Shown: positions 51,101 to 54,100 of the stretch, one piece after another | Position numbering within the stretch: the first letter of the stretch is position 1 | Layout: every line of letters starts with the position of its first letter | Assembly: GCF_032854445.1 (NCBI RefSeq) | Contig: NC_088305.1 | Coordinates: forward strand, 20,996,955-21,060,954 | Length of the DNA: 64,000 bases | Reading direction: 5' to 3' | DNA from: Liolophura sinensis | Lineage: Eukaryota > Mollusca > Polyplacophora > Chitonida > Chitonidae | Notes under the pieces: generated by a model | The model's database searches: none | Told to the model about the DNA's origin: nothing | What the model saw: only the letters and a program-made list of their open reading frames with translations | Position numbers and translations under genes: made by a program

Positions 51101-54100
51101 CTCCATCCACCTTGTGTCTCCACCTGGTTGATATGGCCGAAATATTGCTGATGTGGCATTAAGCCATAATCATTCATTCATTCATTCATTCATTCATTCA
51201 TTCATGTAAACTCTGTTGGAAAGTATACCCTGTCAATATAGACTGTATATAAATCTGTTGAGCATTTGTGGCGAGTACGTTACATGTATATTGTTGGTGG
51301 TAGTATTTTTTTTATTCATTACTGTCATGAGTTTATATGTTATCTACACTTGGGCTTATATATTATACATGCGTGGGAAGGTCTGGCAGCAACCTGCGGA
51401 TGGTCGTGGGTTTCCGCCGGGCTCTGCCCTGCTTCTACCCACCATAATGTTTACCGCCATCCTATAAGTGAAATATTCTTGACTACGGCGTAAAACATCA
51501 ATCAAATAAATAAATAAGTAAATTATACATTATCTACACTTGAGCTATGTCCCCACCTCCTCTGCAGGCATCATGAATACCGTCATGAGTTTATCTACAT
51601 TTGGGCTATATCCCCATGTCCTCTGCAGGCTTCATGATTACCGTCATGAGTTTATACGTTATCTACACTTGGGCTATGTCCCCATCTCCTCTGCAGGCTT
51701 CATGAATACCGTCATGAGTTTATTCATTATCTGCACTTGGGCTATGTCCCCACCTCCTCCGCAGGCTTCATGATTACCGTCATGAGTTTATTCATTATCT
51801 GCACTTGGGCTATGTCCCCATCTCCTCTGCAGGCTTCATGAATACCGTCATGAGTTTATCTACATTTGAGCTATATCCCCATCTCCTCTGCAGGCTTCAT
51901 GATTTCCGTCATGAGTTTATACGTTATCTACACTTGGGCTATGTCCCCATCTCCTCTGCAGGCTTCATCATTACTGTCATGAGTTTATACGTTATCTACA
52001 CTTGGGCTATGTCCCCATCTCCTCTGCAGGCATCATGATTACCGTCATGAGTTTATCTACATTTGGGCTATATCCCCATCTCCTCTGCAGGCTTCATGAT
52101 TTCCGTCATGAGTTTATACGTTATCTACACTTGGGCTATATCCCCACCTCCTCTGCAGGCTTCATCATTACTGTCATGAGTTTATACGTTATCTACACTT
52201 GGGCTATATCCCCATCTCCTCTGGAGGCTTCATGAGTTTATCTGTTATCTACTCTTGGGCTATATCCCCACGTCCTCTGGAGGCTTCATGAGTTTATCTG
52301 TTATCTACTCTTGGGCTATATCCCCACCTCCTCTGGAGGCTTCATGAGTTTATCTGTTATCTACTCTTGGGCTATATCCCCATCTTCTCTGCAGGCTTCA
52401 TGAATACCGCCATGAGTTTATAAGTTATCTACACTTGGGCTATGTCCCCATCTCCTCCGCAGGCTTCATGATTACGTCATGAGTTGATACATTATCTACA
52501 CTTGGGCTATGCCCCCCACCTCCTCTGCAGGCTTCATGATTTCCGTCATGAGTTTATACATTATCTACACTTGGGCTATGCCCCCCACCTCCTCCGCAGG
52601 CTTCATGATTACGTCATGAGTTGATACGTTATCTACACTTGGGCTATGCCCCCCACCTCCTCCGCAGGCTTCATGATTTCCGTCATGAGTTTATACATTA
52701 TCTACACTTGGGCTATGCCCCCCACCTCCTCCGCAGGCTTCATGATTACATCATGAGTTTATACATTATCTACACTTGGGCTATATCCCCACCTCCTCCG
52801 CAGGCTTCATGAATACCGTCATGAGTTTATATGTTATCTACACTTGGGCTATATCCCCATCTCCTCCGGAGGCTTCATGAGTTTATCTGTTATCTACTCT
52901 TGGGCTATATCCCCATCTCCTCTGCAGCCTTCATGATGACCGTCATGAGTTTACATGTTTTCTACACTTGGGCTATATCCCCACGTCCTCTGGAGGCTTC
53001 ATGAGTTTATCTGTTATCTACTCTTGGGCTATATCCCCACGTCCTCTGGAGGCTTCATGAGTTTATCTGTTATCTACTCTTGGGCTATATCCCCACCTCC
53101 TCCGCAGGCTTCATGAGTTTATCTGTTATCTACTCTTGGGCTATATCCCCATCTCCTCTTCAGGCTTCATGATGACCGTCATGAGTTTATATGTTTTTTA
53201 CACTTGGGCTATATCCCCACCTCCTCCGCAGGCTTCGTGAGTTTATCTGTTTTCTACACTTGGGCTATATTCACATCTCCCCCACAGGCTTCATGACATC
53301 CTTCACAGTGAAAAAAAGCTGACTTTAGTGTTTGAATACTGCGACCAAGATCTGAAGAAGTACTTTGACAGCTGCAATGGAGAAATTGATCCAGACAATG
53401 TTAAGGTAATCAGATATTAACCTGCATGCGGTCGCTGTGAGTTCAAATCCAGCTCGTGCAGCCTTTCTCTCTGGCCGTACGTGGGAAGGCCTGCCAGCAA
53501 CCTGTGGATGGGCATGGGTTTCCGACACACCATAATGCTGGCCGCTGTCGCATAAGTGAAATATTCTTGATTACAGCGTAAAACAGCAATCCCAAAAATA
53601 TTAATGTTCATGGAATTATTAAATGTGCTTTACCTAAAGTTTAGCTTTTTTTTTTTTTGCACGTTTTGCTTGATTCTGATTGATTCATCCACTTTTTATT
53701 AATATTGGACAACTTAACAGTTTTTTGTGAAGTTTGATTAATTTAATCAGAAAAACTTAATTGTTGGCATCAAATGAAGGATTTTAAGGCCTATACCTCC
53801 TCCTAAAAGTACATTGTTACGTTCCAAACCTTGGACTTAAGACACTAGTTCTCTGTTTACCTTTACTTTTTAGGCAGACATTTCTTTTTACTTTATATGT
53901 AGATTTAAAGTTTTAAAAAAAAGATGAAACAATTCGTTACAACTTTTTGTTGTTACACCAGGTGCTTGTTTGTTACAGAGTTTCATGTATCAGTTGTTGC
54001 GGGGTCTGGCCTTCTGTCACAGTCACAACGTCCTTCATCGCGACCTCAAACCTCAGAATCTCCTCATCAACAAGGTCAGCACTGCTTTGTACCCAAGCGT

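Follow-up and report, generated by a model that had tools for sequence, protein, structure and literature searches.

In the chiton Liolophura sinensis (named Liolophura japonica in the published genome and later corrected to L. sinensis; PMC12441733), intron 3 of CDK5 carries 27 head-to-tail copies of the end of the intron, each with nine bases from the start of exon 4, and this series ends at the true acceptor. Copying of the intron 3 junction is in excess of chance. We suggest that the array is probably a minisatellite of the "mirage" type that was seeded by the exon 4 junction and is nearly silent, in which the acceptor nearest to the donor of exon 4 would win and leaked transcripts would decay. 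Coordinates below are positions in the window, i.e. the whole 64-kb stretch of DNA analysed, and the CDK5 features all lie on its plus strand.

The CDK5 gene and the organization of the array

Ten exons of CDK5 were read in the 64-kb window. Joined, they give a 264-residue product without a stop, the best matches of which are solved CDK5 chains (E 5e-162); a motif scan turned up no last exon or exons. Exon 3 (50579..50646) ends in AGTCAG|gtgagt. It is followed by intron 3, which is 2641 bp long (50647..53287), and by the 118-bp exon 4 (53288..53405), which begins with GCTTCATGACATCC and ends in GTTAAG|gtaatc. The true intron 3/exon 4 junction reads AG|G CTT CAT GAC, coding R-L-H-D. Elsewhere in the window, an open frame of 246 residues (34051-34791) matches cytochrome P450 (E 1.3e-11).

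In the main array (51531..53287), 27 decoy acceptors lie between 51568 and 53232 and are followed by the intronic portion of the true junction. The array is closed by the true junction copy (53250..53296), with 38 intronic and 9 exonic bases. An earlier note on this DNA had proposed 27 tandem decoy acceptors in the intron, and exactly 27 AG-bearing units are found upstream of the true exon 4 acceptor at 53288. The note was also right that the array closes at the true junction; its start, placed there at 51535, lies further upstream. A partial 5' unit, cut off before the pyrimidine tract, is found at approximately 51317..51361 and has 90% identity to the true-junction unit over the shared columns. 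It is split from the other units by an insert of ~160 bp (approximately 51371..51530), which was read by eye as resembling a dispersed repeat. Also by eye, similar sequence occurs elsewhere in the window and ATTATACAT is present on both sides of the insert, possibly as a target-site duplication.

Units are spaced at 56-69 bp and fall into classes of 68 (with 67 and 69), 61 and 56 bp. All 27 contain AG, which is usually CAG, as had been noted (21/27); the other six end in GAG. The motif GCTTCATGA is exact in 21 units and differs by one base in the other 6. The acceptor is followed by a G in 26 units (AG|GC) and by a C in one (AG|CC), and the AG|GT required at the acceptor of a recursive-splicing ratchet point is absent from all units. 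The stretch without AG that precedes the AG of each unit is 44-45 nt long in 22 units and 21-37 nt in the remaining 5, which leaves room for a branch point.

Mean identity among units is 0.89. Likeness is 0.92 between neighbours (lag 1); it climbs again to 0.91 at lag 12 and lies at 0.78-0.87 for lags 20-26. The higher likeness of neighbouring units is the pattern expected from local duplication.

A usable donor downstream of a decoy, as in a decoy or poison exon, was not found: in 51301-53288 no GT matches at least 7 of 9 positions in a simple count against the 9-position consensus, and three match 6. One of these three lies in the last decoy unit (53237-53242), where a base change creates a donor-like ttc|GTGAGT five bases past the decoy acceptor.

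Acceptor strength and the outcome of decoy use

All 27 upstream acceptors are followed by an in-frame stop, at a distance of 8 to 91 codons (median 40), and from 25 of them the stop falls within array-derived sequence. Since every upstream acceptor leads to a premature stop, an extended full-length CDK5 isoform, which the same note had considered, is not expected. The stops themselves need no selection, because 90% of 500 arrays permuted by column within units also stop all 27 reading frames. A fail-safe that favours the last acceptor is thereby weakened as an evolved property. We reject the premature stops as a selected fail-safe on the basis of these permutations; it is also countered by one CCT3 array, in which use of any of the first six decoy donors keeps the frame and brings in no stop.

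Acceptor strength was scored with a small model built from 41 references, of which 33 were chosen by eye from conserved genes and 8 came from CDK5. The references have a U-rich consensus. The acceptor of CDK5 exon 4, which is C-rich, lies at the 10th percentile of the 41 references and at the 87th of the 3679 AGs scored in the window. With this small model, 10/27 decoys score at least as high as the true acceptor, for example the decoy at 53164 (giving an exon of 242 nt), with 2.5 versus -1.2 for the true site. Decoy scores span ~11 bits, and the five lowest belong to five of the six GAG units. The earlier description of the acceptors as near-equivalent is weakened by this span, by the six GAG units and by four positions at which the true junction differs from all units (see below). 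As modelled here, the true exon 4 acceptor does not stand out by its primary sequence, and this result counts against our preferred reading, as the true site is not favoured over the decoys.

RNA structure that hides the decoys was considered and rejected: the region 52930-53405 has a fold z-score of +1.64, with 95 of 100 shuffles at least as stable, and a fold no more stable than shuffles lends the idea no support. What sets the true acceptor apart is most likely its closeness to the donor of exon 4. Under exon definition, the acceptor nearest to this donor would be favoured, with an exon of 118 nt, whereas the decoys would give exons of 174, 242, 298 nt and more, to a maximum of 1.8 kb. Splicing to a decoy would lead to a premature stop, and the transcript would most likely decay.

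The same observations bear on a different role for the array, that of a regulator in which decoys compete with the true site and transcripts leaking into decay would reduce CDK5 output proportionally to the number of copies. The 10 decoys that match or exceed the true acceptor and the stops behind all 27 are in its favour, as is a precedent on the donor side, the human ABCA7 minisatellite, whose length is reported to correlate both with skipping of exon 19 and with reduced expression (PMC5954066). We nevertheless regard regulation as unlikely, given that the stops are expected anyway from the permuted arrays and that RT-PCR of amphioxus Adh3 and globin was reported as suggesting undisturbed regular splicing (PMC3087553).

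Comparison with known splice-junction repeats

The closest known structures are the "mirages" of amphioxus, described as tandem-duplicated intron-exon boundaries with minisatellite character and unit turnover, in which the boundary of the cluster escapes homogenisation and splicing is apparently undisturbed (PMC3087553; PMC3902484). The CDK5 units are like mirages in spanning the intron-exon boundary (38 intronic and 9 exonic bases in 27 units), in that their exonic part is copied from the adjacent exon (+1..+9), and in their splice signals, AG being present in 27/27 units and many mirages carrying AG or GT. The exclusion of the boundary also has its counterpart, as the true CDK5 junction differs from 27/27 units at four positions (PMC3087553). 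Differences from the amphioxus mirages are the host, a mollusc and not a cephalochordate, the number of copies (27 acceptors, versus 6 and 3 units in two BflGb6 haplotypes) and the exon content, as only 9 exon bases are included in the CDK5 units. The CDK5 array shares the four mirage features tested and has a high copy number for this known type of structure.

Minisatellites at splice donors form a second group. The human IFI6 gene (6-16, G1P3) has one with a 12-bp unit that provides tandem splice donors at the exon edge, on the donor side. In human ABCA7, an intron 18 VNTR is described as a minisatellite that opens with bases of the real splice site, and retention of one VNTR unit as shifting the frame and introducing a premature stop (PMC5954066). 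A minisatellite containing the real splice site, with a premature stop upon unit inclusion, is common to CDK5 and to ABCA7; the ABCA7 VNTR is set apart by its position on the donor side, its 25-bp unit, its polymorphism, its link to disease and a measured effect on splicing and expression. The CDK5 array is not a splice-donor minisatellite of the ABCA7 and IFI6 type, as it is the acceptor that repeats. Donor-type arrays are present in the chiton genome in CCT3, CCT5 and PSMB1. No mollusc or chiton case of a junction array was found among the matches listed, which were mostly from non-subscription literature, and priority for molluscs is not established by this.

Origin of the repeat unit

That the exon 4 junction is the source of the units had been put forward in the earlier note, and alignment of the units with the junction was set beforehand as the test. 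Exon bases +1..+9 of the true junction agree in 25-27 of the 27 units and +10 and +11 in none; past +9, likeness to exon 4 is no better than in shuffles (P 0.36 anchored, 0.73 local). On the intronic side, 31 of the final 38 bases (AG included) are the same in the unit consensus, and at -17, -15, -7 and -4 the true junction is unlike all 27 units. This pattern implies that nine exon bases were copied and that four positions changed, in the founder unit or else in the true junction, with no overwriting between units and true junction there since. When CDK5 junctions were compared with their own introns as a control for self-copying, the exon 4 acceptor scored 41/47; none of the other 8 acceptors exceeded 25/47, and none of 9 donors exceeded 21/39.

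A search of the assembly (609,464,459 bases in 632 contigs) with one consensus unit returned 28 matches, all inside the CDK5 array, although a missing match in such a search does not prove absence. The weakest of the 28 is the true junction copy at 53250-53296 (87%, E 7e-8). In addition, the (R)LHD encoded by the shared exon bases is identical in the one solved CDK5 chain with its alignment shown. The sharp stop at +9, the (R)LHD shared with that chain and the restriction of the unit to this locus in the one search performed support the earlier proposal that the exon 4 junction is the source.

The reverse order of events, in which the array came first and the exon 4 acceptor was later taken from it, is very improbable. 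In its favour, the terminal unit upstream of -18 resembles a hybrid, with a start of the 56 type (GTTTATCTG) and then TTTTCTACAC, which unit 52996 also has; however, the shared exon bases encode (R)LHD, as in solved CDK5, and the unit was found at no other locus in the single genome search. That copy number has been inflated or collapsed as an artefact of assembly is very unlikely, for although tandem arrays are prone to misassembly, the units differ from one another (mean identity 0.89) and the PacBio HiFi reads, which average 8,347 bp at 14x, far exceed the 1.8-kb array (PMC11068029). The 28 genome matches, from one assembly, included no second haplotype copy of the array.

Seeding by the exon 4 junction would have begun with an ancestral tandem duplication of ~68 bp, comprising 59 intronic and 9 exonic bases, after which unequal exchange or slippage may have multiplied the units. 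As read from the unit alignment, the 61-bp units would have lost 7 bp between TTAT repeats, and in the 56-bp units the loss between TCATGA repeats would be 12 bp. If a unit exchanged with the true junction, an intact exon 4 would still have its acceptor, so that the array could grow and shrink; it is probably selectively near-silent. One observation counts against this account: intronic-side identity shows no gradient toward the true junction along the array (Spearman 0.14, P 0.48), in an ungapped comparison in which four units with an extra C score low.

CDK5 has two further arrays in the window. In intron 1, a 23-bp x 71 array (47939-49527), many units of which contain TGTAG or TGCAG, stops ~115 bases short of exon 2. 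In intron 9, a 28-bp array (57413-57779) looks, by eye, like an amplified segment of the dispersed repeat that occurs elsewhere in the window. The same junction test found no match of either array to its own CDK5 junctions. Large tandem arrays of 53-bp and 96-bp units are also found outside CDK5 (1-2136 and 24001-26068).

Arrays at other exon boundaries

Tandem arrays across or up to a splice site were found at 6/65 sampled exons, one of them weakly; five are in addition to CDK5. The sample is small and non-random, and arrays detected with Tandem Repeats Finder were subsequently assessed by eye. It consists of 34 chaperonin exon matches (64.4 kb), 21 proteasome exon matches and the 10 CDK5 exons; the 34 chaperonin matches are those counted of 50, leaving out 3 in single-exon loci (L005/L006) and 13 partly outside the extracted sequence. 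Each of the names CCT5, CCT3 and PSMB1 is based on a single exon, and other CCT3 exons were assigned by contig, strand and profile order.

The CCT5 donor (L022, C1:72.04 Mb) has a 109-bp array of 6 decoys, with GT in 6/6 and 93 exon bases copied; one unit is identical to the exon across all 93 bases. Two CCT3 donors at C8:53.41 Mb, each being one of L011/L019, have 11 decoys with ~44 exon bases and GT in 10, and 5 decoys with ~26 exon bases and GT in 4. In one of these two arrays, splicing at any of the first six decoys would add 66 bp or a multiple of it to the exon, keeping the frame and meeting no stop. The PSMB1 donor (L081, C13:7.54 Mb) has an 80-bp array of 5 decoys that include 25-27 of 28 exon bases, with GT in 3. 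The weak case is a CCT3 acceptor (L020, C8:53.41 Mb), where a 41-bp array has 10 copies by threshold, AG in 9 and hardly any exon sequence. These arrays at exon edges of other genes count for the mirage-type reading of CDK5.

The short CCT3 exon at L020 has, besides its 5' acceptor array, a 27-bp x 43 array that begins ~10 bases past the donor. At another chaperonin locus (L018, C1:48.45 Mb) a pyrimidine-rich 51/17-bp array stops ~30-50 bases before the acceptor, with the AG and exon uncopied. As a counter-result, none of 30 kinase loci has an array (period at least 15, at least 2.5 copies) within 900 bases of the match; these loci were taken from 138 kinase matches. Many of the matches at these loci span the whole domain, and distances were counted from the match and not from an exon edge. 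A stronger proposal, that splice-junction arrays are common and still active (at several percent of conserved-gene exons) and that array length in CDK5 determines what share of transcripts goes to decay, is rather doubtful.

Implications for splice site choice

Twenty-eight nearly alike acceptors in one intron, together with boundary arrays in core genes, provide a test of how the spliceosome chooses a site. If 10/27 decoys do equal or exceed the true site, as in the small acceptor model, then sequence strength is not the whole answer. CDK5 output could in principle be tuned by array length, though we regard this as unlikely (see above). If arrays in chitons are as common as the small sample suggests, new introns and exons could readily be drawn from them, an idea already put forward for amphioxus (PMC3087553). 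If they are both common and active, they would offer a natural collection of nearly identical splice sites in competition, on the donor as well as the acceptor side.
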